Below, piece by piece: positions 16,549 through 55,389 of a DNA stretch of 64,000 nt. How positions within the stretch are numbered: position 1 is the first letter of the stretch; every line of letters begins with the position of its first letter. The translations under genes and the position numbers were made by a program. The notes under the pieces were generated by a model that was not told where the DNA came from, made no database searches, and saw only the letters and a program-made list of their open reading frames with translations. Source of the DNA: Porphyra umbilicalis (taxonomy: Eukaryota; Rhodophyta; Bangiophyceae; Bangiales; Bangiaceae); NCBI GenBank assembly GCA_002049455.2, contig KV918761.1:248001-312000 (forward strand), in the 5' to 3' direction.

Positions 16549-16553
16549 GAAAT

Positions 16554-25882: not shown

Positions 25883-25884
25883 TT

Positions 25885-25903
25885 TGGTGGAGCAGCAGGG
25901 GAT
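25885..25903 (+). promoter_or_regulatory. element B primer-binding site
   Basis: TGGTGGAGCAGCAGGGGAT begins two bases after the 5' LTR. It is identical over 19 bases to the element A site, which marks the primer tRNA shared by both elements. Confidence 0.87.
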
Positions 25904-26112
25904 ACCCTCGCCTTCATCGTGCCTCGCGGCACGGTGTCCCCGAGAACTTTCTCTCTACCTCGTGGCATTTTGACGGTGTCGATACGGTCGCTTGGCGCGC
26001 GGGGCGTAAGCCATCGACTTGTGGGCGTGGTGCCGGGGGCATCACGGTTGAGATCTCCGACGTTGGCGCGCAGGGCGTAAGCCATGTCGGAACACTTTGT
26101 TCAGGTCCCAGT

Positions 26113-30700: not shown

Positions 30701-31815
30701 CGGACCGGATCCTATCGGACCAAGGGCCCCAGTTCATGTCGAACTTCTTCATCGTTGTGATGAAAATGCTTGGCATTGAAACGGTTCGAACCACGGCGTA
30801 TCATCCCCAAACCAATGGGCAAGTTGAACGGTACAACCGTACCATGGCTACGCAGCTGCGACACTACGTCGCCGACGACTCATTACGATGGGATGAGCTA
30901 CTCCCGGTGATCACCATGGCGTATAATAGCCGACCACATCGGTCGACGGGCATCGCCCCATTTGAGCTCGTTATCCCAAGGCGGATCCCGAACCTCACGG
31001 TTCGCAACGTGCGCCCGGGCACTCCGCTTACCAATAAGGGAACGCTCAAGGATGGGTCACCCCTAGCTCTCAAGCGCGAGTTCATGGCCCGCCTGCGCAA
31101 GCAGATCCCCATCGTGGTCGAGGCCTTGCGTAAGACGCAACAGCGTTACAAACGTAACTTCGACCATCGGGTCGCAACCCGCAATGCGGACGTCAAGATC
31201 GGCGACTACGTATACACGACCAACCACGATCGGCAAAACAAGCTGCAAAGCAAAGCCATTGGACCCTTCGTGGTCGTCGACGCGGACGCGGACGCCTCCA
31301 CGTTTGTCATTGACATTGACGGCGAGGAGAAACGCGTCAGCAGTGACCATGTCACCCCAGCTCCTCGTCCAACGACGACGGACACCGTTCCACACCCCTT
31401 GCTAGATGGTCTAGACCAACGCAAGTCAACCCCGGCAACTGCTGATGAGTATGTGATCGACAAACTCCTAGGCTTACGCCAGACGGGTGACAGCTATAGC
31501 GCTAAGGTGCGCTGGTTCGACTACGGGTCGAAAGACGACACCTGGGAACCCCTGTAGAACCTCCCCCGCAACCTGGTGGTGCGTTTCCTTCGACAGAAGA
31601 AGAAGCATGTACCGGGGTACGAGTGGCAAACGCCAACGCGACGAAGTCGCCGACAGGCCGGGCTCACAACCGTGGCCAACATCGTCATGGACTCCACGTG
31701 GATACCCACTATCCAACATGTCCATGTTACCGGTGACGGAGTTATCCATGCCGATGTCTCTTGGACAGATTCAAGTACCGACGTTGCAATTAAGGAAGTA
31801 ATTCCTGTGGCGTGA
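27761..31815 (+). pseudogene. pol: element B Pol (PR-RT-RH-IN-chromodomain), two TAGs
   Basis: One frame runs from about 27761 to TGA 31813-31815, broken only by TAG 28207-28209 (after the protease) and TAG 31555-31557 (inside the chromodomain). Protease: PVFDTGAGVNIV. Reverse transcriptase: FCVDYRRLD, TSLDCTAGYW, LVYLDDVIIFS (about 29230). RNase H: VDVDACADQVG, TTERE, IRADHQALSW, all acidic residues kept. Integrase: zinc finger HHATVAAHPGMNRM..CTTCAQ, then LSVDIFGP, ILSDQGPQF and NGQVERYNRT as the DDE triad. The chromodomain KVRWFDYGSKDDTWEPL continues after the TAG with NLPRNLVVRFLRQKKK, which shows that the frame past the stop belongs to the protein. Apart from the stops the catalytic set is intact. 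Confidence 0.95.
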
Positions 31816-31836
31816 CTCAAGTCCACTCTGCCGTCC

Positions 31837-32229
31837 ATGACGCGCAACTTTGCGTATGATCCCCAACTTGCCTTGCGGCATTTCTCTCGGCTGAACCGTG
31901 TTTACGGCCCGTATACATATGAGTGGCCGAAATCCGCACAGGCGACACTCATCAGGAGCGATCCCCCCGTACCAGTGCTCCCCAACTGGCTTCTGGTACC
32001 TCCGGTGCAACACTTGGACTCCGTCCTTCGATGCTTGGTAACGACCACAGAAGAAGCATCCGTGGTAATACCACAATGGACCAACACCAGTTGGTACGCT
32101 ACTGCCATACGTGCATGTTTCGAGTCCAAAGTGCTTTTATCAGCAGACTCAAGGGATACAAATCCCACAACATGGGCCATGATGGCCTGCCACTTCCTTC
32201 ATCGCTATGACGATAAACAGAAAAACTGA
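31837..32229 (+). CDS. small ORF after pol, RNase H-like end resembling DIRS elements
   Basis: 130 codons in the pol frame, 21 nt past the pol TGA, starting MTRNFAYDPQ. Its core, SRLNRVYGPYTYEWPKSAQ..NWLLVPPVQHLDSVLR..ASVVIPQWTNTSWY, follows a pattern I associate with the carboxy part of the RNase H domain of DIRS-type retroelements (..hTvDRFAs..N..WL.PP..P.W...W), with the usual Asp replaced by Glu (YEW). That match is from memory and tentative. It could be an acquired second RNase H, a 3' part of pol separated by a stop, or an unrelated protein. No element A counterpart was seen. Confidence 0.45.
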   Translation: MTRNFAYDPQLALRHFSRLNRVYGPYTYEWPKSAQATLIRSDPPVPVLPNWLLVPPVQHLDSVLRCLVTTTEEASVVIPQWTNTSWYATAIRACFESKVLLSADSRDTNPTTWAMMACHFLHRYDDKQKN

Positions 32230-32373
32230 AAAGTGGATACAAACCTGTCAAACGACAAACAATAACAAGACGAAGAAACATCAACACCCTGAAAAGGCGT
32301 AAGACCCCGACATTGTCAACCCCACCCTCCCCCACCGGGATCAACCGAGCAAGTCACTGAACAGTGAACCTCG

Positions 32374-34332
32374 CTACTCCTCGTCGTCACGACGACGCGA
32401 GTCCCGGCGGGAATCGCGGCTCGTGCCAACACTGGCCGCCGACTCCTGCGAGACACTACGCGCACGCGTGTTGCACGCCGAGTGCGGAACCCCCGTCGAC
32501 GGGCCTCCGCCCTCGTGGGTCCGACGACCAAGGATGCTCTGCGCGTTGAAGCGCGCCGGCGCGGCCTCCTCCTCTGGCTGGATAGCCTCGAGGTGCTGGG
32601 CGAAGCGCCCGTAGTTGGCCTCGCCGTCAACGGCGCGAGCCACGGCCTGTCCAATAATGGACAAAGCCGACTCGACACCCCGTCCGTCCGCGCGCTCAAC
32701 AGCGGTACGCAAGCCTGCGATCTGCTCGACCCAGGCGCTAGCCACCGCCGACAAGGCTGCCCCGCGGGGCGCGCGAACGCGTACATCGCGCGCGCGTGCC
32801 GCCCCAAACAAGGCAACCGTCGCGGTGGACGACGCGCGGGTCGGCCAAGTGGCATCCACCGACCGGGGCGGAGATGGCGAGCGATCGTGCCGCGGTGAAC
32901 GCGGGCGGTAGCGGCCCTCGCGGGCGTCGCAAACGGCGTGAACCCAGGTCCGACGACCACGACGCCACACCCCGGGATGGTTCGAAGCAATTCGAGCCAT
33001 CGGGAGTGGCGCGTTCGGGTCCAACGCCCAGTCGAAATCGACATAAGGGTGGCGAAGGCAAAAGCCGTACTCCTTGGTCGGGTCGACCAGGACCCGCACC
33101 TGACGGGCTTCCCCGGAGTCGCGGTCGCGCCAGACGACGTCCTTAAGGACCTCCCGCCAGGGAAGCGCCGTCACGGCTTGACGCATCTTGCCGTACAAGA
33201 CGTACTTGGCCTCGCCGTCGGGCGCGTCCTTCAACTTGGACGTATCCAACGCGTCGAAATGACGAAGCGTCTTCGTGTCCAAGTGGACGAAGAGCTTGTC
33301 CTCCTGCAGGGTGTGGACCCACGCAGCAACAAAGTTGCAGTAGTACTCGGAGTACACCTCCTGCCAGACGGAGCTGTAGGCGTTGCGCAACGCATCCGCC
33401 ATGTACGACACCACCACGGGGGTCGCCACCCACAACCCCGTGTGAGGCTCCCAGTCCGGGATAGGCGGAGGCCAACGGGACAAGTCGAACGCCCGTGGTG
33501 CACGGAGAAATCCAGCCGCCCACGCGGTGGGCATCAACTCGCGACCGCGAAAGAAGCGCGTGTCAGCGGCCCGACGGTGGTCGGATGGGAGCATCGGCAG
33601 CCGAAAGGGGTTCGGCAACCCGGTGACCCGCGGACTGCGGTCATCCTCGACGTTGTCGTTCTCCTCGTGCTTCACCAGCGCGAGCTGCTCGAGGTACTGC
33701 TCCAGACCGGAGTCGTGCCCGAACGGGACCGAAAGGTCCTCGGCGAGAGCCCGCTTGAGGAAGACGGCCTTCGGCCAATTGCGCAGCAAGCGGCAAAACG
33801 AGTTGGCCGCCGCCACGATCGACTCTGTACCCTTCACAGGGAACATAAGCGCATTGACGTACACCAAACGGTGGAACGGGTGCAAGGGCAGTTGGTACCG
33901 CACGACCTCGTTGCAAAACGACATCACCTCATATACACGACGCTGAGGTCCCTGGTTCCCAAAGTACGGGTCCCGGTGGACCTCGGCCACGCGGTCGCCC
34001 GCGTGGTCCGGCAACCCGGCTTGCGCCATCACGTCGATGAAGTCGGGCAACGCCTCGTAGTGCGCGTAAACACGGCGCGTGTGCGCACGAGCGCGGTTGC
34101 GTACGCACATCTCGTACAGACGGTTGCCGGCGACTCGCGGGACCCCAATGACCACCTCCACAGGGTTGGCGTGCACGTAGTACGAGCCGCGAGGCCGAAA
34201 CTGGCGCAAGACCTCTGAGTCCGCGGAGCAATCCACTTCCGAATGGCCACCCGCAGCGGCATGCGCCCCGTCGATGGCCCCACCGCCACCGGCAACGCCG
34301 ACGTCCACCGCCATCGCGGCTGAATCCGCCAT
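32374..34332 (-). CDS. element B antisense ORF (~650 aa), unknown product
   Basis: An uninterrupted 652-codon frame opposite to gag-pol, between pol and the 3' LTR, from ATG 34332 (MADSAAMAVDVGVAG). The same frame is open further up to 34749, but only across 30-bp repeats encoding (A/S)PAATAARA. The protein has no low-complexity bias in its middle: RPRGSYYVHANPVEVVIGVP, VYAHYEALPDFIDVMAQAG, YQLPLHPFHRLVYVNALMFP, WQEVYSEYYCNFVAAWVHTL and YGFCLRHPYVDFDWALDP, then a Ser/Arg-rich tail ending RRDSRRRDDEE. I recognise no domain; YSEYYCNFVAAW is not long enough for a confident membrane span. Being intact while pol is broken, it deserves notice. Confidence 0.7.
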   Translation of the reverse strand: MADSAAMAVDVGVAGGGGAIDGAHAAAGGHSEVDCSADSEVLRQFRPRGSYYVHANPVEVVIGVPRVAGNRLYEMCVRNRARAHTRRVYAHYEALPDFIDVMAQAGLPDHAGDRVAEVHRDPYFGNQGPQRRVYEVMSFCNEVVRYQLPLHPFHRLVYVNALMFPVKGTESIVAAANSFCRLLRNWPKAVFLKRALAEDLSVPFGHDSGLEQYLEQLALVKHEENDNVEDDRSPRVTGLPNPFRLPMLPSDHRRAADTRFFRGRELMPTAWAAGFLRAPRAFDLSRWPPPIPDWEPHTGLWVATPVVVSYMADALRNAYSSVWQEVYSEYYCNFVAAWVHTLQEDKLFVHLDTKTLRHFDALDTSKLKDAPDGEAKYVLYGKMRQAVTALPWREVLKDVVWRDRDSGEARQVRVLVDPTKEYGFCLRHPYVDFDWALDPNAPLPMARIASNHPGVWRRGRRTWVHAVCDAREGRYRPRSPRHDRSPSPPRSVDATWPTRASSTATVALFGAARARDVRVRAPRGAALSAVASAWVEQIAGLRTAVERADGRGVESALSIIGQAVARAVDGEANYGRFAQHLEAIQPEEEAAPARFNAQSILGRRTHEGGGPSTGVPHSACNTRARSVSQESAASVGTSRDSRRDSRRRDDEE

Positions 34333-34370
34333 CGTGTTGGCCGTCCGGGGGGTGTTTACCGTCGCTGTCG

Positions 34371-34672
34371 CCGCCGGGCTTGCCGCCCTCGCCTCCGTCG
34401 CCGCCGGGCTTGCCGCGCTTTCCGCCCTTGCCGCAGCGCTTGCCGCCCTTGCCGCCGTCGCCGCCGGGCTTGCCGCCCTTGTCGCCGTCGCCGCCGGGCT
34501 TGCCGCCCTTGCCGCCGTCGCCGCCGGGCTTGCCGCGCTTGCCGCCGTCGCCGCCGGGATTGCCGCCCTTGCCGCCGTCGCCGCCGGGCTTGCCGCGCTT
34601 GACGCCCTTGCCGCAGCGCTTGCCGCCCTTGCCGCCGTAGCCGCCGGGCTTGCCGCCCTTGCCGCCGTGCGC
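34371..34672. repeat. 30-bp tandem repeats upstream of the antisense ORF
   Basis: About ten units of GCCGGGCTTGCCGC(C/G)CTTGCC type, period 30 bp, so all three frames on each strand stay open and give Ala-, Pro- or Gly/Lys-rich peptides. They may be 5' leader or an extended amino end of the antisense ORF. Confidence 0.85.
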
Positions 34673-34829
34673 GCCGCCCCCCCCACCCCACGCAAACCCA
34701 CACTCACCGGGCCCACCACCTCGCGGTGTGCCACCTTGCGGCGGCGCACCCCTACTCAACCTTGCCGTTAGGCAGCGACCTGTGCGCGAGCACGAAGGCA
34801 CGGGATGGCCCCGTGCCGATACAACGCGG

Positions 34830-35100
34830 ACCCGCACCCCGGCTTCCGCCGTGTCGTCGGGGGAGTCAGCACCCCGACGAGGGCGGCGCCTGCCGTCACG
34901 ACGACCACCACCCAGCTGGTGCTGCCCCGCGCGCACGCCTCGGTGCTAACCGGCCTGGAGGTGTGAACCCCACCCCCACGCTCGGCACCACGGACCCGCG
35001 TCCCGGCTTTCGCCGTGTCGTCGGGGTAGTCAAACCCCCGACGAAGGAGGCGCCACTCGGCGCCGACGAAGGTTGCCCCAACACGTGTTGCACGACGCAC
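34830..35100. repeat. ~162-bp direct duplication near the element B 3' end
   Basis: The segment ACCCGC(A/G)(C/T)CCCGGCTT(C/T)CGCC with GTGTCGTCGGGG and CCCGACGA(G/A)GG(C/A)GGCGCC occurs at about 34830 and again at about 34992. 34673-35455 otherwise shows no gene and would contain any promoter for the antisense ORF. Confidence 0.7.
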
Positions 35101-35455
35101 CCACGCACCAACGGGTCTTAACCCCGACGCTCGTCGCCTGTCAACCGGCCGTCTGGCCACCACGCCGACGCCGACGCCGACTCGCCTGCGAGAACGCGCG
35201 TACGCGCAAGCGCCGGTCGAACCCACAGCGTCAGCTGCCCGCCACCCACGCCCACGCGTGTGTGGCGGGACGGTCGCGACTGACGACGGCGAACCGCCAC
35301 CTCCCCCCCATCGGGACTGGGCGGCGCGCTCCCCACACGGCTCCCGCCGCCTGGGCGGCTGCGCCCGCGCGGGCCTGTAAGGGGCCGCGATCGCCTAATC
35401 GGGTTTCACCATCCTCGGATCTCACCGGGACGGTTCGAATCTCGCGTTGGAGGTA

Positions 35456-35840
35456 TGTAGCATATCTCTGCTACCAATTGGCAATTAGCCACGAGTAGCC
35501 CCCTTGACTGGCCGAATCCACGGATGTGTGTGACTCGGCTTGTGGCACGCCCTTTGGGGGGTTACTTCCGCATTGTTTATTTTTTATTGCTTGCCTGTCT
35601 TATCTGTCTGTCGGCACTCATTACGATCGCTTGATCGGATGATCGATCGACCAGTGCCGTTGCTTGTATTAAACCACCGTGGGTCCGGGGTCGCCGTCGT
35701 GGGCACTACCCGGCTCCCCATTGGATGCCCTTCAACAAAAGGTCTTTTTCCTCGCCGCGACGGCGATAGAACTCGCTTTATTGCTTGGCTACGGTCGGTC
35801 TCAGTACACTGGTAATTGAACTAACTTTATTGATACCACA
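35456..35840 (+). repeat. element B 3' LTR
   Basis: 385 bp, TGTAGCATAT..GATACCACA, followed directly by the TSD GTCGG at 35841-35845. The sequence before it (GTTGGAGGTA) is only weakly purine-rich as a plus-strand primer site. Confidence 0.97.
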
Positions 35841-38553: not shown

Positions 38554-40958
38554 CTACAATTCAGAAATAATAGGACAACGAGCACGCAGATAGGGCCCGT
38601 CAGGGACACAGCCACTGCACAAGCAGTTTGGCACAGGCAGGCCGACCACCGACTCTGCACCAAACCGAGAGATTAGCTGACGGTTGATGCAGCCACGCGA
38701 CTGCAGGAGGGACTGCACGTCCCTCAGAACATCAAGATCCTCTGCGATGTCCTCCTGCAAGATGTCAACAAGACGCCTCGGCCAGCGGCCTTGCTCGATA
38801 ATGGCCAGGACCTCAAGCGGGACGACGTCGCTATAGTCCTCGCTCTTGTCGACGACCAAAACAACTTCGTGGCACATCTCTTTGACAGCGCCATGGACAG
38901 CCGAAGGTCCCGCCGAACCTTGATCCAGGAAGGGAGAATCCCGACAAACAGCGCGAACGTCAAACCTGGCAATCTGCGGCCTGCTTGCCCCACGGCGCCG
39001 TAGCTGCGGCATGACGTGCTTCGTCCACAACGCCTGCGCATCTTCAGAGAGATCAGCAAATCCGGCCATGAGGTTCTTGTCCGGCCGCACAGCGATTCGG
39101 CAAGGCACATTGGGCCCAGCCCTTGTCGCTCCCAGCCGCTGTAGACAGGCCAGGACACGGCTCACTTGCTTCGGTCCGACGCCTGCAGCGCGGAAGTCGG
39201 CGACGTGCATGAACGATGTTTTGCCAGTCGCGGCCGTGTGTTCGATGATTCTGTTGAACAGAGTTGAAGACTCACTCTCGGTCATCTTGTTCTCGTTGGT
39301 GACATGACGGACCCCACCCGAGTCGCAAGGGTTGAAAAAACATACGCAAACAGCTTGAAGGCCATCACGGCCAGCTCTACCAAACTGTTGAGAAAACTCT
39401 GACACGGAGCTCGCACCTCCCTGTTTCGCCCGAGTGGATCAAACAGCAGCCAGGCCGCAGGGGCCAGGCCGCGATAGGCGCAATCAGTCGTCAAACGGAT
39501 AAAAGAATCCAACCCAGCAATCACACAGTGTACCAAGTGAGAAGTATAATTGACAAACAGAACTACGAAGGAGTCGTTAGTGGTCAGAACATAGCAAGCC
39601 CGAAGGGGTGCACGAACAAGAGCCACACATGATAACAGGTGCGACAACCACAACAAGGAGCGTCGGCCGTGCGTACAAAGTGAAGCACCGCTCGCACATG
39701 GGCACAATTCACGCCCATTCCAAACGCAATGGTGGCTACCACCACGATCCCCGTGTTCGTGGCGAAATGATGCTCCGTCGCCGCCCGATCTTCCAGACCG
39801 GCATGGTACACAAGTACGTCAAGAGGCTCATCGCGCGAACTGCCGTGGCGCGCAAGAGCCTCCGCGGCGCATCGGAGCTCCGCACCAACACGCGCCGCTT
39901 CAGACCGGGACGACGTGAAGACAACCATGTTGCCACCGGCAGCCCGGCAGCAAACGGCCAGCTGAAAAGCATAAGCAACACGCTGAGCGTGCTCAAGGTC
40001 AGCGCGGCACTGCTCCACGCGATGAGAGCGCCCAAAAGCGTACGCAGCGTTACGGTCAATGTCACGAATGACCAGATTGCGCCGCAGGAATGGACCGCGA
40101 TGAACGACCAGAGGTTTGTTGATGTGGAGAGCGTCCTGAAGAGCAGAGACTTGAGCAAGCGGCACCGTCGCGGATAGGGCCAGCCGGCGGCAGCAACCGA
40201 AGCGCGACGCAGCTCGGGAAAGGTCCGGGCGCCAGCGAGCCCACGAGTCAAAGAGGTGCGCCTCGTCGAAGGCAAGGAGGCAAATGCCCATGGTGTTGAT
40301 CACCCCTAGCAGCGCAGGGTTATTGACCATGGCCTCAGGGGACGCAACAAGGATGACTAGCTGTCGCGAGGTTACCGTTGCATGATTCCGCGTGCGCTCA
40401 AGCTCAGTAGAGGAACCAAGGAGTCCGGCGCAGTCCAGTCCAGCGGCGTGGAAAGTCTTGACGTGCTGCCGACCGATGCTGTTCAGTGGCGTCAGCAGCA
40501 CGGTCAGCCACCGCCTACGACTGCGCAGCAGCAACGCTGCAATACCGACTACAACGGTCTGCAAACCACAAGTAACAAGACCTCATTGAACGGAGCAGCA
40601 AAAGCACATCAGTAAGGGAATCCAATCGCGGGAACATGCCCTTCCAGCGAAAAAAAAAGATGCCACCAGGACCCGCTCGCGGCGAATGTCTTGACTTGCC
40701 TTGTCCAGTGCCCACAACTGACAAGACGCCGACATTGGGATTGTTCTTGTCCACGACGGAGACAATGGCCTCGAGTTGGCCTTGCCGGAAGTCCTCGTGC
40801 TCAAAACGGCTGCGCAGCAGGCCATAGGCAGCCGCCCGTACTGCCGCCTTGTCCATATTGCCGCAGCTTCTGGCAGTCGTGCACTCAACCAAAGAAGATG
40901 ACAGCCCCACAGCGTCCCTTCTTCCAGTGGGGCGCTTGACGACAGGCGCTGCGGACAT
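38554..40958 (-). CDS. RecQ-family DNA helicase, three exons
   Basis: ATP-dependent 3'-5' DNA helicase of superfamily 2. Exon 1 (ATG 40958 to about 40696) ends in FRQGQLEAIV..VVGTGQGK, the RecQ Q-motif and Walker A. Exon 2 (40558-39677) holds the DEAH box FDEAHLFDSW, ALSATVP (motif III), NMVVFTSSRSEAA and VVVATIAFGMGVNCAHVR (motif V). Exon 3 (39420-38554) starts GGASSVSEFSQQFGRAGRDG, motif VI with its arginines. Intron 2 (39676-39421) is GT-AG and joins codons exactly in phase. Intron 1 is less clear: GT at 40695 and AG at 40559 leave one base too few, so an unusual junction or a 1-nt loss must be assumed. A winged-helix region after motif VI is plausible but not certain. The gene lies on the same strand as, and downstream of, the recombinase at 41410. 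Confidence 0.87.
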
Positions 40959-41409
40959 ATCATCGTAAATGGGAGCCTCGGCGACTTTGAACCGCCTTGC
41001 TTTGGCACAACTCAGCACAACTTTCGACCATCTAATTGCACATGCATTAAAAACCACAGTATGAACTTAATGCACAATTTGAGGTTTCGCTTCAGAACTG
41101 TCAGGTCAATTTGAGGTAGCAGTATGGTTCACTGAGATCTGCACATCCAATATTTATCATGCTAAATCTACTGCATACGATGACAGATGTAGTGGGACGT
41201 ACTGTTTTGCCCTCTTGTCGTGCTCAGAGCTGTTGTTCATGTCTACCAAATTCGCTTCCCGTTCACGCTTCATGTCCTATTGACCCCTAGAGCGTGTAGT
41301 GACCCAGCACATCCTACAGACACACGTTTTGCTGAGGAAGTACGTCAAAGATTGCTTTACGACCGGGAAAACGCGGGAAAAAACGGCATGGTACACGGGT
41401 GGCCCCCGA
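40959..41409. other. spacer between RecQ and recombinase genes
   Basis: About 450 bp, AT-richer than its neighbours, with no open frame of interest. It would hold the RecQ promoter, if the gene has its own, and the recombinase 3' end. Confidence 0.5.
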
Positions 41410-42921
41410 TCAGTCCGACCGAGCGACCTGCTTTGGCAGCGGCCCTACCTCAATCCCCAGCTCTTGTAGCACCCCAGCCTTCACCTCTCCTCGTTGTGAA
41501 ATTACATCAGCCAAGGCCGCTTGCGCCGTAGTGTACGTGTATCGCTTCTCCAATCGATTGCTTGCTTGCACATACGCAAAATACGCCGAGAACGTCTGCC
41601 AGTGACCGCGCTCCTTGATCTCTTGGTCAGGAACGCCAAGAAGACGGTAGAGCTGCACGCCGCCGCGCTTGAAGGAGTGCGTACCGAGAAACCGGTAAGA
41701 GTCCACCCCTGCTTCATCGAAGGCATCACGCAAATCGTTGAGAAACGCTCCATCCTTCAAGGGCGTGCGCGGGTCCATCTCGTACGCGTCACGACCGACA
41801 TTCTTGAAGTTCACAAAAAGGGGACCCGCTAGCTCCCCGCGCTTCAGCAGGTACATGGCAAGGGCGAGGACAGGGTCAACCCCAGGATCACCAGCGAGAC
41901 CCGGGCCGCCTTCCAAATAGTAACGATGCCCAGTCAGGGAGTTCTTGGTACCCTGCAAGATGTTGATTCGAAACATGGGGTTCCCAAACACGTCCTCGGT
42001 GAGCAAAACATTCTCGCGCCTGAGATGAACAGAGTACAAGATACCAGCATTCAAGTGGGCATCACATGCCAGGGACAGCGTAGTGGTAGTCCGCCACGCT
42101 TGTGTCACTTGCGAGTTAGAGATATCATGACAACACACCAGTGCTCGAAGTCGGACGACCCCGACCGTACGTGCGTCGATGAAAAAGAGCCAAAAAAAAA
42201 CTGGCACAAGACACCCAACGTACTGGATCTTTGTAACCTCATCAATCCGCATGAGGTTGAACGTCGCGACCATCATGGCCGCAAACTGGCAAATCCTTGC
42301 AGGGGCAACATCGTCTTCGTCCTTGATGTAGTTATCGTAGTAAGCACACATATGCCCGCACTCTAACGCGTCGATTGCAACAGGGACACGGCCTTGCGCT
42401 GCGAGCGCGGCCTTATGGGCGCGCTTACACTTGACGACGTCATCGCTGTAGTTTGGGTTGCCATTGACATACGTGTCCCGCATGCCCACCTTGCCGGTTG
42501 ACCACTGTCCCGAGCAGCCCAGCTCCTTGAAGAACAGCGTCATCTGAGCGGAGACATGCTTTGCCATCTACAGTCCGAGCCGGAAGTTCTTCGTCCGGTA
42601 CTTGTAGAAGTTTGCGACATGCGCAGCGGTGGTTGACGTCACAAGAAAAGGGTCCACACCTACGCGAGCACAAAACGCGACGTAGTCGGCGCGCATCGCC
42701 TTGTGAACTTGAGCGCTGCTGTCGGATCGCATTGCCTCCTCGGTCTCCTTGGCAAGTTCCACGGCATCGTACGATGATGATGCCGGCACGTGCTCAAGCC
42801 AAGCATCGCGGCGAGCCGCACTGGTGCGGTTGTCACGCGTGTTGGCAAGGCGACCGATCGCGAAAGGGGGAAGATCCGAACTTGTCGGCACCGCTGTCGA
42901 CGAATTGGTGGAGGATGCCAT
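41410..42921 (-). pseudogene. tyrosine recombinase, one internal TAG
   Basis: Site-specific recombinase of the tyrosine class, as in Crypton-type elements. From ATG 42921 the frame runs 503 codons to TGA 41410, broken by TAG 42568-42570. The first part is a helical core-binding domain (VHKAMRADYVAFCARVGVDP, AAHVANFYKYR). After the stop comes the catalytic domain: NLMRIDEVTKIQ (first Arg), LRRENVLLTEDVFGNPMFRI, GTHSFKRGGVQLYRLLG (His box, with Lys where HxxR normally has Arg, followed by Arg), KERGHWQTFSAYFAYVQ (His/Trp box and candidate nucleophile Tyr). A T-rich stretch (about 42195) followed by a divergent segment could be a retained in-frame intron. The TAG is followed directly by ATG, so the catalytic domain alone could start there. 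RecQ lies just downstream. Confidence 0.85.
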
Positions 42922-43362
42922 GGTTGCCGTTCACGGCAGCCCGCACAGGCCGCTGCGGCGAGTGTCCGCGCACGAGCGGAAGATGGCTGCACGGAGCGAA
43001 TACTGGAACGGCGACAGCACTGCGAGCAAGGTAAAGGGGCGAAACACAGCCTCACCGCCCAAATAATAGCCGTGTATGCGGCTGGCAGAGGCATTGCCCA
43101 ACGCATTGAAGATTCCCAACAAGTATGAGAATCGGTAAACAATTGGACGTACAATCGTACATTGGGATTTCCTTGCTGTCTGACTCAGGCAGAGCGCTCC
43201 TCTTCGTCTGATTGGCCAGTATCGCCAGCCGCCGCGCACCGTCGTGCTTTTTTAGGACATAAGCGTTTCTGAGACGAGGGTCCAGCTGTCGTTGAGGATG
43301 CAACACAGTCCCCAACCTACGTGCCTCCCACCTGGAAGCTCCTCCAGCTTGGCCAACGAGCA
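42922..43362. promoter_or_regulatory. divergent intergenic region
   Basis: 440 bp between the recombinase start (- strand) and the gene at 43363 (+ strand), the expected place for a shared or back-to-back promoter. No TATA box or operator-like dyad could be assigned. Confidence 0.35.
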
Positions 43363-44295
43363 ATGATGCAAGGTGAAGCCTCATCGTGTGCTGCGTCAGA
43401 CCCGGCATCCTCTTCAACGAGACAAGATGCCCGGCCTGACCCGCCGCTCCGTTCTGAACGACGTTATGACGTGGCATCTGCGCGCCCTCATCTTCCGCTG
43501 ACAGCAGCTATCAACCCATTGCACCGCGCCTTCGTCCCAAGGCAGCTGCCCGAAAACCTCGACGGTCACCTGCGCTTCCCAAGAGCGCTCGCCGCAAACG
43601 GAGCCCAGATGCCCCCCACTCGCGTCGCCAAGGCACTTTGTGACGCAATCAAGAACAAGATCGGGCAATTCGAGGTCAACCATCGCCGTGGAGCGGCACG
43701 TCGTAGGCTTCCAGCGCAGATGACTATGTCCGCCAAGGTCTTAGCCGCAGTAGTCTATGGAAACCCGTCCGACCAGCCCTCTGACAAGCAGAACGGCATC
43801 TGTTCGCTCCCGCTGTCGAGCGTCGAAAACACGCCGGCATCACCTCCTACAACAGACCAGGGCACCCTTTGTTTTCATTGCCGCCAGCCATCTGCTGGAA
43901 GCTCACTGCCAATTCGAGCGCCAGTCAAGATTCAAGTGAAGCCGTTCACGCTGCCCCCGCTACCGAAGGACTGGGACAAGATGCTGGATGCCGTCCAGGA
44001 CTCCTGGGAGAGTGGGCTCAACGGCTCCCCGGCGCTCAAGACTCTCGTATGCGGGTCGACCACACGGGTTGCTATGGCATCCAACAAGCAATTGTTTGGG
44101 CGGGGGTGTTCTTCCATGCTGTCCAAGCGCGGGGCAATCGCTAATGCGGCCACAAGATACGGTGGCTGGAGCGCTTTGCGTGTTGTTCTCCGTCGGGAGC
44201 GAGCTGCCCGTGAGAGTTGCGGTGCGTCGTTTCCTTACAACGAAGTGCACAAGTATTGTGCGGCACTTGCCTCGCGGTCGGACTCCGGATCTTAG
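43363..44295 (+). CDS. unknown protein divergent from the recombinase
   Basis: 310 codons from ATG 43363 (MMQGEASSCAAS) to TAG 44293-44295 without internal stops. Middle: RVAKALCDAIKNKIGQFEVN and a basic RRGAARRRLPAQ. A CFHC pair (about 43872) could be half of a metal site. The carboxy half is the most regular: VKIQVKPFTLPPLPKDWDKM, ALKTLVCGSTTRVAMASNKQ and GGWSALRVVLRRERAAR. No family is recognised. Its place next to the recombinase and RecQ suggests an accessory protein of the same element. A T-rich stretch ending TTTTTTCAG at about 44378 could be an acceptor for a further exon. Confidence 0.5.
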   Translation: MMQGEASSCAASDPASSSTRQDARPDPPLRSERRYDVASARPHLPLTAAINPLHRAFVPRQLPENLDGHLRFPRALAANGAQMPPTRVAKALCDAIKNKIGQFEVNHRRGAARRRLPAQMTMSAKVLAAVVYGNPSDQPSDKQNGICSLPLSSVENTPASPPTTDQGTLCFHCRQPSAGSSLPIRAPVKIQVKPFTLPPLPKDWDKMLDAVQDSWESGLNGSPALKTLVCGSTTRVAMASNKQLFGRGCSSMLSKRGAIANAATRYGGWSALRVVLRRERAARESCGASFPYNEVHKYCAALASRSDSGS

Positions 44296-45187
44296 GCACT
44301 TGGTAGAGGTCGCGTTCACGTGTGGCGTATGTAGTCCCATGTTCATCTGTCTGTTTCTCTATTTTTTCAGACCCGGGAGACTGACGTGTGCTCCAGCTTG
44401 GGCCTGTGAAGCAGAAACGATTCCATGGGAGGCTGGCCCAGTTTGTGGGCCGGCGACGAGGCCAGCATGTGGGTGAATCTCGGAAGTGCATTGCTGCGAT
44501 TGACCTTTCTAGTACTGTTTCACAATATGATCTACAATTAGACATAGAGATTAGAAACTTCATCAACGGTTCAATTAGCTTCTCTCATTCAAAACCATAC
44601 TGAAAGTGTATACACATCGTGTCGGTTTCGAAGACAGTGTATACACATCGTGTCGGTCTCGGCCTGAGTATTTGCAAGTACAATTAGATGCCGGATTGCA
44701 GGGCACGTTTGGTGCTCTGCTCGCTCGGGTGTTGCGTCGTTGCCGCCCTTTCGAAGGGCACGCTGCTGGAGCACCTCGTGACGCGAGTACCCGACGCGCT
44801 GTTTACTGGCCTGTGCGCAGCTCTTCTTTGTTGGGGTGCTCCAACAGAGTCGCATTTGGTCTGAGTCATAAATCTGATTGTGGTTTGCCGCAAGGTGCTT
44901 CGTGCTGCATCCCTTCTTCATGGTACGTGCTTTCCACACGATGAGGCCATCTGTTTGACATCTTGCTGCGTGATGTTTTTTCCCGCGTGTGCACGCAATG
45001 TTGTTTTTGCGCGTCTATTACAGTGTTTGTGCTGTTATTCTGTGACCATGGACGCTATGGCAACACATATTTTCCGTTGGAAGATTTTCGTGCTTACAAG
45101 TGCGCGCTTGTTCGTCTGTTCTAACCACTGTATATCTGCCGGGATCTATCCTCTTCTCGTTTCTTTGTGTACGTTGCTTGTCAAAAG
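44296..45187. other. region without a gene; short direct repeat
   Basis: No coding signal. The 22-bp string starting AGTGTATACACATCG occurs at 44605-44626 and 44636-44657 (period 31 bp) and contains the palindrome GTGTATACAC. 44940-45187 is T-rich and likely the 5' region of the next gene. Confidence 0.6.
44605..44657 (+). repeat. tandem 22-bp motif with GTGTATACAC palindrome
   Basis: Two exact copies spaced 31 bp apart, each carrying the 10-bp palindrome GTGTATACAC, followed by ATCGTGTCGGT. Short paired sites of this kind could be recombinase or regulator binding sites; they lie about 300 bp beyond the end of the gene next to the tyrosine recombinase. Confidence 0.8.
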
Positions 45188-47755
45188 ATGCCTGCCGGCC
45201 GATCTTCTGGAGGTGCCGCAGGGGCGGCGTCCGACAGCGCCGCACCAAAGAGTAAGAAGACCAAGATGACACGGATGGAGCTGAGAGCTTCACGGGTGGA
45301 TGCTACAAAGAAGGCGCAAGCAACTCGGAAGCGCAACCTGCAGTTCAAAGCCAACGAGCCAACTTCGAGGCAAGGTCGCAAGCGCGCTCGCGGGAAGGCT
45401 ACTAAGGCTACCAGCGAGGAGCTGAGCGAGGTGTTTGGTAGCGACGCCGGTACTGCCGACGGCTGCTCCGACGAGGATGGCGCCAGCGACGACGGCAAAG
45501 CTACGAACGGGACTGCTGATGGCAGCCCCGCCGGGAGCAGCAACAACACCACGGCGCCCACCGCGCCGCCGCGCGCGCTGCCGCCGTCCGCTGCTGGTGG
45601 CAGCCCCGCCGGGAGCGGCAACAACACCACGGCGCCCACCGCGCCGCCGCGCGCGCTGCCGCCGTCCGCTGCTGATGGCAGCCCCGCCGGGAGCGGCAAC
45701 AACACCACGGCGCCCACCGTGCCGCCGCGCGCGCTCCCGCCGTCCGCTGCTGGTGGCAGCCCCGCCGGGAGCTGCAACAACACCACGGCGCCCACCGCGC
45801 CGCCGCGCGCGCTGCCGCCGTCCGCGGGGCCTGCGGGGACCTGCCGCGTCGACGGCGGCGGCACCTCACCGCACGGCACCAACACTACGGCGGCCGTTGC
45901 GCCAGCTTGCGCGTTGCAGCCGCTCACGGCGCCTACCGGATCCGGCCGTGTCGTGGGGGGCCTCAATACGACGCTCGGCAACGAGACGGCGGACCCTACC
46001 TCTTCACCGCACGCGTCGCCGCCGGACATGGCGCTGGCCGGATCTGGTGGAAACGTCCAAGTGGTCGCCACGCTGCTGCCCGCTGTAGTGCCATACGCAA
46101 GGGGAAATTGCGCTGCCCGAAGCACGGGCGGAGCCTACGTTTGCGGCAACCCGCGTTCACCTTCTCGAAGAGATCAGGACACTGTTGCTTGCACTCTGGA
46201 GGCTGCGTCTGCGGCTGTGAACGACACGTTGCAACACGACGACGCCCCGTCGCCGTCCCTGACGGGCTTTGCCGGCGCAATCGCCGGTCTTGGTGCGTCT
46301 GACCTAAAAGACGCGCGCGCAATGCCCGGTGCAAACCCTGACCTGCTGCCCTCTTTCGATGGCGGTCCCATCAATGAAGCCGACGAGCAAGACGGACCCA
46401 TTTTTCCTGGTGAGGAGTTCTTATACGACGGCTCGGAGGGGGGCGGCGGCGACACATCGGCTGCACGCTCGCGCCCTGGTGGTGGTAAGGCAGTTTCGGC
46501 GGTCTCAGAAGCCACTGACAGCGCTCATGAGAGTGCTCCGTCCCGGTTCCCTTGGGTGCCAGACGCTGCGCTGCAGCAGAAGTACGCGGCTGAGCGCCGC
46601 GCATGGCGCGCTTGCTTCGCCGATTGGGGCGTGTCTTAGGAGGACGACCTCCATGCTGAGGTGGTGGAGCTGTTTACAAGAGCGAAAGACATTTCTCCGT
46701 CCTACATCGTCCACTACGCGTCCGCCAAGGTAATGTCCGACGCACCGGCGACTCGCAGTGGCGTCCAAGACTGGTTCTCATGCCTGCTGAACGCCACAAT
46801 GCAGGGTGTTCCTGCGGCGGCGGAGCAGCCGCTGTGCCGCGTGCGCCGAGCTCATGTGCTGACGGTCATCACGGCGGCTTATGCTACATACGGATTCAAC
46901 CTGCCAGAGTCTGGCAACGCTCGACCGGACGCGCTTTCTGTCGGACGATGCAACGACGTGGACAGCCTGGTACATGCCTCGGACGGGTACGCGAGCTTGC
47001 CCACGTTGCCACTTGCCGTTGCGCCTGGCCAACGACCGGCTGCCGATGCTCCGCGGGCTCAAGTCGCCCGCGAAGACCCCGCTCAGACGCACAAGAAAAG
47101 CGGCAAGTCGGTGGGCGCGTCGAAGGCCGAAATGGGCCGTGCAGATGGCGCTGCCGAAGCTGGCAGCTTGGAAAGCAAGGGGCGGCACGACCGGACGATG
47201 GTCCGCATGATGACGGCGGTCGGCATCATGCTGACATACTTCAACCCGGAGACGAAGAAGTGGCCTTCCGTCCATGACGTCTTCATGCGTATGCCATCAA
47301 ACATCCTCAAGGGCATGTCCGAGGCCTCCATCGGGCTGATGGTGTCGTCCTGGCGGTGGGCGCGCAGAGGCAACAAGGGTCGCGAGATGCGGACGTATGA
47401 CCAGCGACACATCTTTGCAATGACAAAGCCGGGCGTGATGACGGATGCCGACGCCCTGCAGTACGTCGTCGAGCTGCACGCGGTCATGATGGGCGACCGC
47501 TTTTGGCGCTACAAGCATATCACGCGCATTTCTGGGTCTGTTGCCATTCCCTGGGAGGAGTGGCTGGCGGAGGCTGAGTCATGGGTACCATCGCTAGACG
47601 CCGACCAAGCTGGCCTGCCGCGTCCCCCTCCCCCACCACATGAGCGAGAAGCCGAGATGTTAGCATTTGCTGCTGAAAGGAAGGAAGCCCCGGCGACGAA
47701 TGAACGAGATAAACTTGCACTGTTATCTGTACGCAAAAAGACTCCCTCTTCGTAA
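45188..47755 (+). pseudogene. unknown ~850-codon protein, one internal TAG
   Basis: Family not recognised. From ATG 45188 (MPAGRSSGGAAG) a basic start (SKKTKMTRMELR, RQGRKRARGKATK) is followed by four 26-residue repeats (GSPAGSGNNTTAPT type), a low-complexity middle and an acidic stretch. The conserved-looking part begins near 46540: YAAERRAWRACFADWGVS, then TAG 46637-46639, then EDDLHAEVVELF, SYIVHYASAKV, VQDWFSCLLNA and AAYATYGFNLP. A second block reads MVRMMTAVGIMLTYFNPE, VHDVFMRMPSNILKGM and GLMVSSWRWARRGNKGRE. It ends at TAA 47753. The segment around the TAG is clearly related to the carboxy part of the Ulp1 gene at 57665-59536, so the frame across the stop belongs to one protein. A transposon origin is likely but unproven. 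Confidence 0.65.
45521..45832 (+). repeat. four 78-bp (26-codon) tandem repeats
   Basis: Units start GGCAGCCCCGCCGGGAGC at 45521, 45599, 45677 and 45755. They keep the reading frame and encode GSPAGS(S/G/C)NNTTAPT(A/V)PPRA plus LPPSA. Near identity between units points to recent expansion. Confidence 0.95.
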
Positions 47756-49895
47756 GACAACAATCGCGGGACTCTCCCATCGCCGCCATCCTCAACAGCT
47801 TTATAATGGGGGCGGGCGGTGGTGCACCGCATCGCCCCCCCCACCACCCAAGAGAATACAAACTGACTGCCTGTCAACACTACCGACTCCCTCACACCCC
47901 ATTCCAGCATCCCCTGGCTCCGACGGCGACAATGACACTGCCGCCACCTCAGACACTTCACTCTCCCCACCGCACGGCCGCCACCTCTGGAGCCACCGTT
48001 TCCGGCCCTCGGCTCCTGTCGAGGCCGACGTGTCGCCCTCCGCCACCAGCCCGCCGTCGTAGTGATCCCGGCCAATCAGCCCCCTTCCGAAAGCGCCCGC
48101 CGGTTGCTTGGGTAGCGTCGACGGCTGACGCCGAAGCGGCGTCGACGGCCGCCGCCGCCGCATCAGCGGCCGCCGCCGCCTGCAGCAATCACAGGTGGGG
48201 GTGGTGGGCGGGGGCAGAGCCGCCGCCGCCAATTTCACATCCCACCTCCCGGGGGCCCACGGACCACTTGGCTGCGTTAACCCGCGTTCTTTCCTTGGCT
48301 TGGTCCCGCACGCCCAGGCCGCGTGCGTACACAATTCACAAGCAGCGGTCGAGAAGAAGAGCCCTCCAGCTCGTCGGGACGCAGTCCGACACGCATGAGG
48401 AGTGCACCAACGGTGTCCAGCTGCGTCACTAGTACCGGAAACGGGCAGTCGTCCTCTTGCAACGAGACGGCGGGCATTGGAAGTCCGCCGACGCCGGGCA
48501 TCGGCGGCCGGCGGACGCCCCTCATCGCACCAGCCGCGCCGCCGGCGCAGCGGGGAGCCACCGAGGCGAGAGAGCAACGGGCAACAGCGGCCGCGGCGTC
48601 TTGCCAACGGGCGGCGGCTGACAGCCTGGCACAGGAACCCAGAAGAATGGGCAGCCGCCGGCGGGGGAGAAGGCTCACGGCAGCGTGAGGCTCGATGGCT
48701 CGAATGACGGGACAAACCCGGTATGAGAGAGCCGACCGTCGCCACCCAGAGAGGCCGGGGGAACGAGCAAATCGGTACCTGCCGTGGCGCGGCGGCGGCA
48801 CCCGACAATTGTTAGGAGAGGAGCCAGATCCCCCGACAGAGGCATTGCGACTCGGCAATCAGATGGCCTGACCCAGGTGGAATCAATATATTTTTGTCAT
48901 ATGAAGATAAGCATTCAATCGATATCTGGGACGCTCATGGCGAGAGCCGCAGGGCCGTCCGACCGTGCAGACTCGAGCTACAGTCTTCCTCAAAGGCTGT
49001 CCACCCTTTTCGTCGCCTGACGAATCCTCAAGTAGCCCTGTTTTTTCGTGCAGAAGATGGCCGAATCGCCCTTCCTGCCAGTGCAATGATGTCTCATGTC
49101 TATGCAGGGGTGCATAGTAAAGGAAGCTACAGGAATGGAGAAAGACTGTACCTGGACAAGGCCGCATACAGAATATACGTATCCTGCAATCGAGTGATCC
49201 ACATTTGGAGGTAAAATAGTTATACTCAATCGAACCAGCTCTTCGACACATATTTTATCGATGTCATTCGATTTGGAATACTAATTGCCCATCGTCTGGT
49301 GCTTTGCGGTGGGGCGGCGGAACGCGGGCGACCTGCCACGTCTTTCAGCCTAGTTTCTGTGCGTGACAGTCCCAGCGGAATCGGTATATTTGGTTGGCTG
49401 GTCGGTGAGCCGCTGACGACGCAGCTGAAAGAGGTGGCCAGTCACTCTTCTCAAATCGACGTCGAGGCGCGGCCCATCCCTTCGTGGCAATGACGCTCAG
49501 TTTTTTGAAGAAGCGGACAGGGCATACGTCTCTGACAGGGCAGCGGGCGCTGTTTTCTCGAGCCAGCCAAACTCAGTGGACGGCCGTGAGCAGGCCAGGT
49601 CGTCAGCTTTCGTTAGAATCCCCATCGGGGGGGTGCTCGGTGGGCGTCGAAGCCCATCGAATCGGGTGTCCGGTTGGAACTGATGGGGCTTGGATGGGGA
49701 CATTGCCAGGGGAACACCGATGCCATATTTGCGCGCCCTGCGCATCCAAGAGGGGGGACTGCCAACCGCATCGGCAACAGTGCCCTGCGCGTCCCCGTTT
49801 CGTGATGGTGAGGACTGCCGACGGCGCCGGGAACGGCGCCCTGCGCGTCCAAGGGGGGGACTGCCGACGGCACCGGGAGGGTAGAATGACACTCG
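47756..49895. other. region without a convincing gene
   Basis: GC-rich with overlapping low-complexity frames on both strands over 47800-48860. A frame at 48277-48858 (-) contains the protein-like VLVTQLDTVGALLMRVGL, but I cannot support a gene. 48880-49300 is AT-richer and empty. 49740-49885 is about 1.4 units of the 102-bp satellite that resumes at 54380. Confidence 0.45.
49740..49885 (+). repeat. 102-bp satellite fragment left of the inverted repeat
   Basis: Contains GTGCCCTGCGCGTCCCCG, GGACTGCCGACGGCGCCGGG and CTGCGCGTCCAAGGGGGG in the same order and orientation as the array at 54380-55240. The inverted repeat therefore separates two parts of one satellite. Confidence 0.85.
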
Positions 49896-51573
49896 ATTTC
49901 TCGCACCTCTTTTCGACAGTGTGAAGGCGGGGGAGGTGCGAGTACCTCAGCTGGCTCCAATCGACGTTTCTCTCACCCTCGAATGGGTCCTTCGGCCCAG
50001 ACAAGGTCCACGCCCGAGAGCCTGTCTGGCTGTGGAGTTGTCACCCCTCCATTTACTTGCTGCGCGGGTTTGCCCAGTGTCCTTATCGCCAGCGGCCCTA
50101 TTCCTGCCCCTCCCGTTGGGATTGCCCATCCCCCAGACCAGCTGCCCGGCACCAGCGCCCCCGCCACCGCCCGCCGCCCCCGCCGCCGGCCGCCCCCCCC
50201 CCTACGGGCGCCGCCCCCGCCGCCGGCCGCCCTCCCCCCCTACGGGCACCACCCCCCCTCTACGGGCGCCGCCCCCGCCGCCGGCCGCCGCCCCCGCCAC
50301 CGCCCGCCGCCCCCGCCACCGCCCGCCGCCCCCGCCGCCGGCCACCGCCCCCGCCGCCGGCCGCCGCCCCAGCCGCCGGCCGCCGCCACCGCCGCCGGCC
50401 GCCGCCCCAGCCGCCGGCCGCCGCCCCCTCCGCCGGCCGCCGGCCGCCGCCCCCGCCGCCGGCCGCCGCCCCCGCCCCCGACGCCCCCGCCGCCGGCCGC
50501 CGCCCCCGCCGCCTGCCGCCGCCCCCGCCGCCGCCCGCCGGCCGCCGCCCCCGCCGCCGCCCGCCGTCCCCGGTGCTGGCACCAGCGGCGGTGCCGCCCC
50601 CGCTGCCTGCCGCCGCCCCCCCCGGCTGACAGTGTTGGCACCGCCCCCGCCGCCAGCCGCCGCCCCCCCTCCTGGCGGCGGCGGCGCCGCCCCCGTTGCC
50701 TGCCGCCGCCCCCCCGGCTGGCAGCGGCGGCACCGCCCCCGCTGCCTGCCGCCGCCCCCCCGGCTGGCGGCGGCGGCGCCGCCCCCGCTGCCTGCCGCCG
50801 CCCCCCCGGCTGGCAGCGGCGGCACCGCCCCCGCTGCCTGCCGCCGCCTCCCCTGCTGGTGACGGCGGCGCCGCCGCCCGCGCTGCCTGCCGTGGCCCCC
50901 CCTGCTGGCGGTGGCGGCGGCGGCGCCCTCGCCGCCTCCCTGCTGGCGCCGCCCCCGCCCGTGCCGCCTGCCTCCGCCCCACCTGCTGGCGACGGCGGCG
51001 CGGCCGCCCCCGCTGCCTGCCGCCGCCCCCGCTCGTGCCGCCTGCCGCCGCCCCTCCTGCTGGCGACGCCGGCGCCGCCGCCCCCGCTGCCTGCCGTGGC
51101 CCCCGCTCGTGCCGCCTGCCGCCGCCCCACCTGCTGGCGACGCCGGCGCCGCCGCCCCCGCTGCCTGCCGTGGCCCCCCCTGCTGGCGACGGCGGCGGCG
51201 CCGCCCTCGCCGCCTCCCTGCTGGCGCCGCCCCCGCCCGTGCCGCCTGCTGCCGCCCCACCTGCTGGCGACGGCGGCGCCGCCGCCCCTGCCGCGTGCCG
51301 CCGCCCCCTCCGCCGGCCTCTGCCCCCGCTGCCGGCCACCGCTCCCGCCCTTGGTGGCTTCCCCCGCCGCTTGCCGCCCCGCCCGCCGCTGGTGCCGCCC
51401 TCGCCGGTGGTCGGTGGCGGCGACGACCCCGGCGCGTGTGCGGCGGGCAGGAGGGCGGGCCGTCGGTGGCGGGTGGCGCGGGTGGCGGGTATTGTGGTGG
51501 ACGGTCGGCGGCCGTCGGGTGTGGGTGGGGCGACTGGTGGTGGTGGCTGGCGGTGGGAGTAGCGGGTGGCGCT
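49896..51573 (+). repeat. giant inverted repeat, left arm
   Basis: 1678 bp, nearly perfect reverse complement of 52678-54353. The outer ~270 bp are mixed sequence (ATTTCTCGCACCTC start). The rest is a GC-extreme tract of GCCGCCGCCCCCGCC, GGCCGCCG and CTGCCTGCCG motifs, itself internally repetitive. All six frames are open over long distances, so the large Pro/Ala/Gly/Arg frames here are not evidence for proteins. The inner end is GTGGCGCT at 51573. A few internal blocks differ between the arms. Confidence 0.95.
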
Positions 51574-52677
51574 GAATGTCGTCGTCGGTGGAGTATGCTG
51601 GTGACGCACCCGCCCATATCTTTTTGTGAGTCACGGCAACCTGTGTGCAGGGTCTTACGGGACTTTCAGCGAGGGCCTATAGTGCTTTGGCTGCACTCCG
51701 CCTCCGCAAGGAACTCGCACGTATGATATGGAGGTGGGTGAGTTGGCTGAGTGCAGACCACGATGTGAGCATCCCACGACCTTCCTTGTGGTTCTTTGTT
51801 GCCTCTTTTGAGTGTATGGGATGTACAAAGGCCAATGGACACACCAAGTTGGCCAGCAGTCTGGCAGGGAACCATAGGGAGGTAGCGGCATATCTGGTCG
51901 GTATGAACTTGGAAGAGCAAGAAAAGTATGAAGGAGACGTCGGTACACTTAGCGACCTACTTTTCCGTTCCCAGGACCCTTCAATGCACCAGGAACGGTT
52001 CTTTCTGAAAAAGTGATGTTTTGGTCGAGTTCGCCCCAGACGTGCCATATGCTTCTCTTCTTGATTGACCAGATGCAAGTGGGAAACACGGCGGTGACTC
52101 GACCACACTGTTTCCCACAAAACTTGACCAGAACGGGCAAGGGTACTGTAGGAGGTATGTAGTGCCTTATTTTCTTGCAAGAAGACATGCAAACCTGTTG
52201 TAGGCAGCAAGAGAAGCGCAAGGTCTCCACCCACTGGATTGAGCAGTGTCAGAGGCAATACATAATCCACTGGACTGGACAGTGTCAGTCTCGATCTGCC
52301 GAGCACACTGGATCTGAAACCTTGTCAGAGGGGGTCCATTCAAATTGCTTGGTGGAGGCATCTCCAGTATGCTCTGCCTCCGTGCCCCCCTCAGCTGTTT
52401 GCCAGGACGGCCACAACTACCGTAGTCAGCACCGACCTTCGCTGCCCTCCCCCACCGCTGTTGCCTCCCCTCACCGCTGCTGCCTCTCCCCACCATTGCG
52501 GCCTCCCCTCCCCGGTGCTGCCTCCCCCTCAGCTGCTCCATCCTTCCACGCTGCTGAATCCCCACCGCTGCTGCCCCCTCCCACCGCTGTTCCTATGCCA
52601 CCACCAGGGGTCGATCCCCCTCACCACCGCAGGAACCCCCATACTGCCAAGGGTGTCCACCACAGGCGCCCGCCTCA
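51574..52677. other. spacer of the giant inverted repeat
   Basis: 1104 bp of unique sequence. 51645-52016 (+) is an open frame of 123 codons (AAYLVGMNLEEQEKYEGDVG) without recognisable domain. 52380-52640 is a CT-rich tract (CACCGCTGCTGCC-type motifs). Its presence as single-copy DNA makes a simple assembly foldback less likely. Confidence 0.6.
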
Positions 52678-54379: not shown

Positions 54380-55240
54380 ATACGCACCGGCAACGGTGCC
54401 CTGCGCGTCCCGTTTCGTGATGGTAAGGACTGCCGACGGCGCTGGTAACGGCACCCTGCGCGTCCGAGGGGGGGGACTGCCGACGGCTCCGGCAACGGTG
54501 CCCTGTGCGTTTCCGCTTTGTGTTGGTTTGGACTGCCGACGGCGCCGGTAACGGCGCCCCGCGCGTCCGAGGGGGGGACTGCCAACCGCACCGGCAACGG
54601 TGCCCTGCGCGTCCCCGTCTTGTGTTGGTAAGGACTGCCGACGGCGCCGGGAACGGCGCCCTGCGCGTCCAAGGGGGGGGACTGCCGACGGCACCGGCAA
54701 CGGTGCCCTGTGCGTTTTCGCTTTGTGTTGGTTTGGACTGCCGACGGCGCCGGTAACGGCGCCCTGCGCGTCGAAGGGGGGGACTGCCGACGGCACCTGC
54801 AACGGTGCCCTGCGCGTCCCCGTCTTGTGTTTGTGAGGACTGCCGACGGCGCCGGGAACGGCGCCCTGTGCGTCCAAGCAGGGGACTGCCGATGATACCG
54901 GCAACGGTGCCCTGCGCGTCCCCGTTTTGTGGTGGTGAGGACCGCCGACGGCGCCGGTAACGGCGCCCTGCGCGTCCAAGGGGGGGGACTGCCGACGGCA
55001 CCTGCAACGGTGCCCTGGGCGTCCCCGTTTCGTGTTTGTGAGGACTGCCGACGGCGCCGGGAACGGCGCCCTGTGCGTCCCACGGAGGGGAAAGCCAACG
55101 GCCCCAACAGCGGTGCCCTGTGCGTTTCCGCTTTGTGTTGGTTTGGACTGCCGACTGCGCCAGGAATGGCGCCGTACGCGTCCTAGGCGGGGACTGCCGA
55201 CGGCACCGACAACGATGCCTTGCGCGTCCAATTGGGGTGG
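54380..55240 (+). repeat. satellite array, 102-bp unit
   Basis: About 8 units; CAAC(G/A)GTGCCCTG recurs at 54391, 54493, 54595, 54698, 54800, 54902, 55005 and 55105. Each unit is two related halves built on GGACTGCCGACGGC(G/A)CCGG followed by GC(G/A)CCCTGCGCGTCC. The halves contain dyads such as GGCGCCGGTAACGGCGCC. Open frames over it are artefacts. Confidence 0.93.
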
Positions 55241-55389
55241 ACGGGTGTCAAGCGCTTGGTGCGGACGTGTTGCCTTGGTCACTTCCATAGCCCAGTCGCG
55301 CGGGGTGCATGGGTCCGGAGCGGTCAGTGCATGAGTGTTCGCTGGCGGATTACCGTAGCCTGGCGTGAAGGGGTAGTTGGGTAAGGTGC

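Follow-up and report, generated by a model that had tools for sequence, protein, structure and literature searches.

Genes of the element core

We analyzed a 64,000-nucleotide stretch of the genome of the red alga Porphyra umbilicalis (contig KV918761.1, here called C1, positions 248001 to 312000; "the window"), in which a tyrosine recombinase (YR) gene lies just upstream of a RecQ helicase gene on the minus strand. The original prediction was that these two genes and a divergently transcribed neighbor form a single mobile element. We consider it likely that the window holds a decayed copy of a large, multigene DNA mobile element that is moved by a Cre-like YR and that has RecQ as a stable component. 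The core of the element consists of RecQ and YR, which read towards the end of the element that we could locate (the near end), followed by two companion genes, gene1 and gene2, which mostly read the opposite way. Decay of the window copy is evident from a TAG codon within YR, a stop codon within gene2, and an inverted-repeat insertion.

The YR gene occupies positions 41410 to 42921 (minus strand), and its frame is split by the in-frame TAG at 42568 to 42570, while the copy on contig C411 reads open across this position (503 amino acids). Because more diverged copies skip a stretch of ~64 YR residues, this stretch is probably an intron. The YR is not recognized by Pfam, and its sole named relative is a protein of Pyropia yezoensis (P0006; Bangiales). 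An initial structure model (pLDDT of 39) was discarded, and the model of the P. yezoensis homologue has a mean pLDDT of 56.7; when the latter was used as a Foldseek query, the best 28 rows were all Cre or Tre. Among the copies, the residues expected of a tyrosine recombinase are kept almost without exception (Arg in 25/25, Lys in 26/26, His in 25/26, Trp at the Trp/His position in 26/26, and the last Tyr, the nucleophile, in 24/26). The second Arg of the HxxR box is not found at its usual position, which holds Lys in 24 of 26 copies and Thr in the other 2; the next residue is Arg in 25 of 26. The His-Trp spacing is 26 and the Trp-Tyr spacing is 9, and the same two distances are found in Cre. 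The catalytic residues, and the fold predicted for the homologue, are those of a Cre-like recombinase; the assignment as a tyrosine recombinase made from the window alone is borne out.

The RecQ gene (38554 to 40958, minus strand) consists of exon-like pieces. It too is real: its product matches the DEAD domain (E = 1.2e-8), its best chain in the PDB is a RecQ (E = 2.9e-14), and RecQ chains fall below the cut of 0.001 (38 sequences). Similarity to the helicase core of RecQ homologues is at ~30% identity. Across the copies, motifs 0, II, V, and VI are mostly present, motif I is poor in many, and pieces are missing in C233, C264, and C29. Outside the genome, a pair of metagenome proteins (59 and 64% identity) come closest, followed by RecQs at ~30%, with no named algal neighbor. 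Six further RecQ matches in the genome lie in long frames (827 to 1536 amino acids), have no YR of the clade described below within 20 kb in our neighbor table, and are probably the host's own genes. This separation, along with the co-divergence of YR and the element's RecQ (see below), bears indirectly on the refuting condition set originally, namely orthologous RecQ genes in conserved host synteny.

Gene1, the divergent neighbor of YR, was originally placed at 43363 to 44295 and was correctly seen as a real gene; it is conserved among copies, and its frame is open from 43321 (43321 to 44295, plus strand). It has no match in Pfam, NCBIfam, or PHROGs, and none of the five proteins scanned against NCBIfam and PHROGs has a match in either. 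Gene2 (45167 to 47755, plus strand) has a repetitive N-terminal part and one in-frame stop in the window, and it forms an open frame of 914 residues in the copy on C77.

Association of the recombinase with RecQ and its companions

We searched the whole genome assembly (83.8 Mb in 665 contigs; other copies are named here by contig) with the genes of the window and obtained 81 matches for YR, 46 for RecQ, 34 for gene1, 29 for gene2, and 51 for a C48-like peptidase gene described below. Before a table of neighbors was compiled, matches were merged by hand, which gave 53 YR loci, 41 RecQ rows, and 20 C48-like loci, weaker C48-like matches being excluded from the table. Twenty-seven YR loci with at least 44% identity make up what we call the YR clade, and the remaining 26 are more distant YRs.

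RecQ lies downstream of YR on the same strand at 25 of the 27 clade loci, at a distance of no more than 3 kb in 23 of these and of 12 to 13 kb in C10 and C119; only C387 and C2 have none. The chance of a same-strand RecQ within 3 kb is 0.0007 per locus. Among the more distant YRs, a same-strand RecQ is found within 20 kb at 2 of 26 loci (C7 and C281). In C119, the gap of ~12 kb between YR and RecQ contains a 386-base direct repeat, 100% alike (C119:42783-59668), and this insert is probably a recent long terminal repeat (LTR) retrotransposon. Gene1 lies upstream of YR on the opposite strand at 24 of 27 clade loci; the loci that lack it are C233, C275, and C48, the latter two of which start at a contig end. 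Gene2 is near 19 of 27 clade loci (on the opposite strand in 16 and on the same strand in 3). The check proposed originally, whether RecQ and gene1 stay beside other copies of the recombinase, thus comes out positive at most clade loci, and the idea of a single element is supported by these counts together with a sharp end shared by copies with varied flanks (see below).

The two core genes have also diverged together. At the 22 loci that retain enough of both genes to be compared, YR and RecQ distances are correlated with a Mantel r of 0.983, a value reached in 0 of 5000 permutations; near-identical copies inflate this r, but the distances between lineages agree as well. Between subfamilies, the ratio of nonsynonymous to synonymous substitution (dN/dS) is 0.04 to 0.11 for YR and 0.10 to 0.25 for RecQ, with saturated dS, while within subfamilies it is 0.36 to 0.68 for the four genes. 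This pattern fits selection on the proteins while the element is mobile and decay after insertion. In addition, a metagenome protein (P0004) carries a YR C terminus and part of a RecQ in a single frame and is 84 to 87% like subfamily B, which shows the pairing of YR and RecQ in a second source. Comparison among copies thus demonstrates a core dispersed over 27 loci, co-divergence of YR with RecQ, constraint between subfamilies, and a sharp end joined to varied flanks at a short core sequence (CAG, then NTA).

Near end and extent of the element

The end past RecQ was located by aligning the flanks of several copies, as originally suggested, and junctions were read directly in 14 copies from three subfamilies (A, B, and C). 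Between C177 and C383, both of subfamily B, identity is 98.7% as far as ...CTCTAACCCCCAG, after which the two sequences differ. When the genome was searched with this end region, similarity stopped at the same base or no more than 4 bases away in 13 further copies of subfamilies B and C. The terminal bases past RecQ are ...TAACCCCCAG in 9 copies of subfamilies B and C, ...TAACCCGCAG in C119, and ...TATCCCCAAG in four copies of subfamily A. Beyond the shared end there are 10 kinds of flank, and NTA follows it directly in 13 of the 14 copies (C119 has TTC). In the window, the last base of the element is 36665, and the terminal bases on the minus strand are ...CTCTATCCCCAAG.

In several copies, the sequence beyond the end belongs to a 1.28-kb dispersed repeat (L070:1475-2753), whose own ends resemble the YR element end (CCWAGTTAAG) and which has YR elements at either of its ends. 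The left end of this repeat adjoins the element in C77, C411, and C119, and 32 bases of it follow the element in the window copy; its other end is adjacent in C177. The possibility that this 1.28-kb block is itself the element end in C77 and C411 was rejected, because the block is dispersed in the genome: of 240 candidates, 40 were scored, and 15 of these are additional copies of nearly full length. We likewise rejected the view that flanking sequence common to C1 and C411 (leftwards from window position 36528) belongs to the element. That sequence is a repeat ending in CAGGG...CCCTG, and inspection by eye shows an apparent target duplication for each of the two copies separately. Further out in this flank, and outside the element, is an LTR retrotransposon (25498 to 35840) with 385-bp LTRs that are 98% alike, a target site duplication GTCGG, and matches to reverse transcriptase, RNase H, integrase, and gag; it is absent from the C411 copy of the surrounding repeat. 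Two pairs of direct repeats (98%), one at 8215 to 17051 inside the other at 7438 to 21518, enclose an aspartyl protease match and are probably nested LTR retrotransposons.

The element extends further than first described, from 36665 to beyond the right-hand edge of the window (minus strand; 36665 to 64000 within the window). Counting only the part inside the window, and including a nested insertion, it is thus no shorter than 27 kb. In the stretches compared, C1 and C77 match at 94 to 98% from the near end to L080:1727 (= C1:313727), the comparison within 54594 to 57000 covering tandem repeats. The comparison extends to C1:313727 without reaching a far end; L080:1727 itself was not accepted as one, as a dispersed repeat starts there. 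In C108 and C41, which have different flanks, gene order and spacing are the same all the way out to the C48-like gene. This gene lies 31.7 and 31.9 kb, respectively, from the near end, which gives a size of ~32 kb to that point; the DNA alignment of these two copies covers 5.6 kb (97.2%), and both contain a second gene1-gene2 pair. Foldback sequence around TCGGCCTCTGCGGCGTCGTAGAGGCCGA lies upstream of YR in C41 and C108 and is absent from C84, and similar cores occur at window position 62013 and in the 1.28-kb repeat.

Between gene1 and gene2, the original prediction noted a paired palindromic motif at 44605 to 44657. An exact pair of 20-mers containing GTGTATACAC is indeed present, 31 bases apart, at 44606 to 44625 and 44637 to 44656 (plus strand), with none expected by chance; the same 20-mer occurs twice in C77, twice in C411, and once in C110. 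It does not mark an end of the element, since it sits ~8 kb inside. Beyond gene2 lie a GC-rich nested insertion (49896 to 54353) with 1.68-kb inverted repeats that are 99.8% alike, which C411 lacks and C77 has in an altered form, and a block of tandem repeats (54384 to 57084; 102-bp units and others) within the region that C1, C77, and C411 have in common. The C48 (Ulp1)-like peptidase gene follows at 57665 to 59164 (minus strand), with a match to PF02902 (E = 0.0057, 17.0 bits) that is below the cut-off of 20.7. Just past the window, a gene at L080:71-1063 (C1:312071-313063) has 71 matches in the genome, one of them beside gene2 in C123. It has no family match; its HxD...H...R pattern resembles that of 2OG-Fe(II) oxygenases.

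Other repeated sequences are found in this right-hand part. A segment of ~174 bases at 48979 to 49152 has many dispersed copies with 84 to 93% identity, and a 630-base repeat with short inverted ends at 62100 to 62731 has dozens of copies at ~96% and is absent from the copy of this region in C32. On C463, the right-hand part is present twice, ~20 kb apart (C463:18174-24005 and C463:38179-45342).

Proposed movement of the element and comparison with known systems

In the mechanism that we propose, the Cre-like YR would excise the element or copy it out, probably in circular form, and would then join it to target DNA through the short core, somewhat favoring the ends of the 1.28-kb repeat. RecQ may act on the YR's own intermediate and so allow copy number to rise, either through branch migration of the Holliday junction or by unwinding this junction for replication. 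This last step is the least certain, and a role of RecQ at the Holliday junction or in replication is put forward tentatively, with the odds somewhat against it. Little is understood of the way in which conservative tyrosine recombinases increase in copy number in eukaryotic genomes, and a helicase kept beside YR through deep divergence is a concrete and testable candidate for that step. A broader proposal, which we regard as rather doubtful, is that these are a distinct superfamily of giant (>30-kb) YR elements in the Bangiales, with a Cre-like YR, a dedicated RecQ, two companion genes, and a C48 peptidase, in which RecQ makes the Holliday-junction intermediate replicate. If this were true, a conservative recombinase would achieve copy-and-paste transposition by means of RecQ.

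Several alternatives bear on this interpretation. That YR and RecQ are unrelated neighbors, placed side by side through coincidence or segmental duplication, is extremely improbable. Some copies are duplicates or alleles, because the flanks of C429 and C355 are 100% identical over 90 bases and long stretches are common to C1, C77, and C411, but flanks common to all copies are not seen, and the association at 25 of 27 loci, the co-divergence, and the presence of 10 different flank types at a single precise end all argue against this alternative. A less sweeping alternative, which we consider possible but unlikely, is that the element is smaller and comprises RecQ, YR, gene1, and gene2, while the C48-like and oxygenase-like genes belong to an adjoining element or to decayed remains. 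Consistent with this, 6 of the 20 typed C48-like loci are away from clade YRs, C32 and C463 carry the right-hand part but have no match to YR or RecQ, and the C48-like gene is oriented as YR in C1, C77, and C46 but oppositely in 12 others. Yet 15 of the 27 clade loci have a C48-like gene no more than 45 kb away (two of them, on C75, share one gene), and the agreement of C108 with C41 out to this gene, despite different flanks at the same exact end, favors the larger element.

The junctions with the 1.28-kb repeat could be uninformative about target choice if it is that repeat which inserts at the ends of YR elements, and its presence against the same end in C77, C411, and C119, its other end in C177, and the remnant in the window copy would all fit. 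We think this is the unlikelier direction, as C77 and C411 diverge right behind the repeat, as if two different repeat copies had been the targets, and seven other kinds of flank at the same base are not this repeat, except for 7 similar bases in C110. It is also improbable that the locus as a whole is viral, a relic of a large DNA virus that integrated or of a polinton-like virus with a YR integrase. The size, the YR, and the C48-like protease are virus-like, and polinton-like viruses with YRs, which resemble the present element in YR and in size range, are known (PMC12220804). However, two scans of viral contigs contained no relative of the YR, and the window proteins scanned included no virion gene, although no genome search aimed at capsid, packaging ATPase, or viral polymerase families was made.

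A mobile element with its own Cre-like YR and RecQ, as we favor, can be compared with several known systems. Fungal Starships are giant elements moved by a YR, the captain, which belongs to DUF3435. The element described here is likewise giant and probably YR moved, but its YR is second from the near end, reads outward, and is accompanied by RecQ; Pfam does not report DUF3435 for P0001 to P0004 at E values up to 10, a search that can miss remote relatives. It adds a giant multigene YR element outside the fungi, including genes without an assignable family.

The original prediction also invoked Cryptons, which have 4- to 6-bp direct repeats and, in some oomycete members, a C48 peptidase gene (PMC3212892). 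CryptonF and CryptonS resemble our element in the YR as likely transposition enzyme and, in some Cryptons, the C48 peptidase gene, and a short terminal core would be expected in both. In contrast, RecQ, gene1, and gene2 are added here, and the size is at least 27 to 32 kb; neither helicase nor RecQ is mentioned in the text of that paper. With one end seen, a much larger size, and many genes, the element has not earned the label Crypton. In fungal subtelomeric RecQ repeats, RecQ genes are repeated and telomere linked (PMC4522978); RecQ is repeated here as well, but its copies are found both in the interior of contigs and close to their ends, and they accompany a YR. Academ and KolobokH transposons also carry their own RecQ but use DDD/E transposases (PMC9587614, PMC3627910), whereas the neighbor of RecQ here is a YR; among the window proteins scanned, which represent part of the element, Pfam matches no DDE-type transposase. 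The RecQ genes of Academ and KolobokH suggest repeated recruitment of this helicase by mobile elements. No description of an element with both a YR and RecQ was found in the open-licence literature searched. RecQ-bearing DDD/E elements and C48-bearing Cryptons are already known, so that, as far as this literature extends, it is the pairing of YR with RecQ that is new here.
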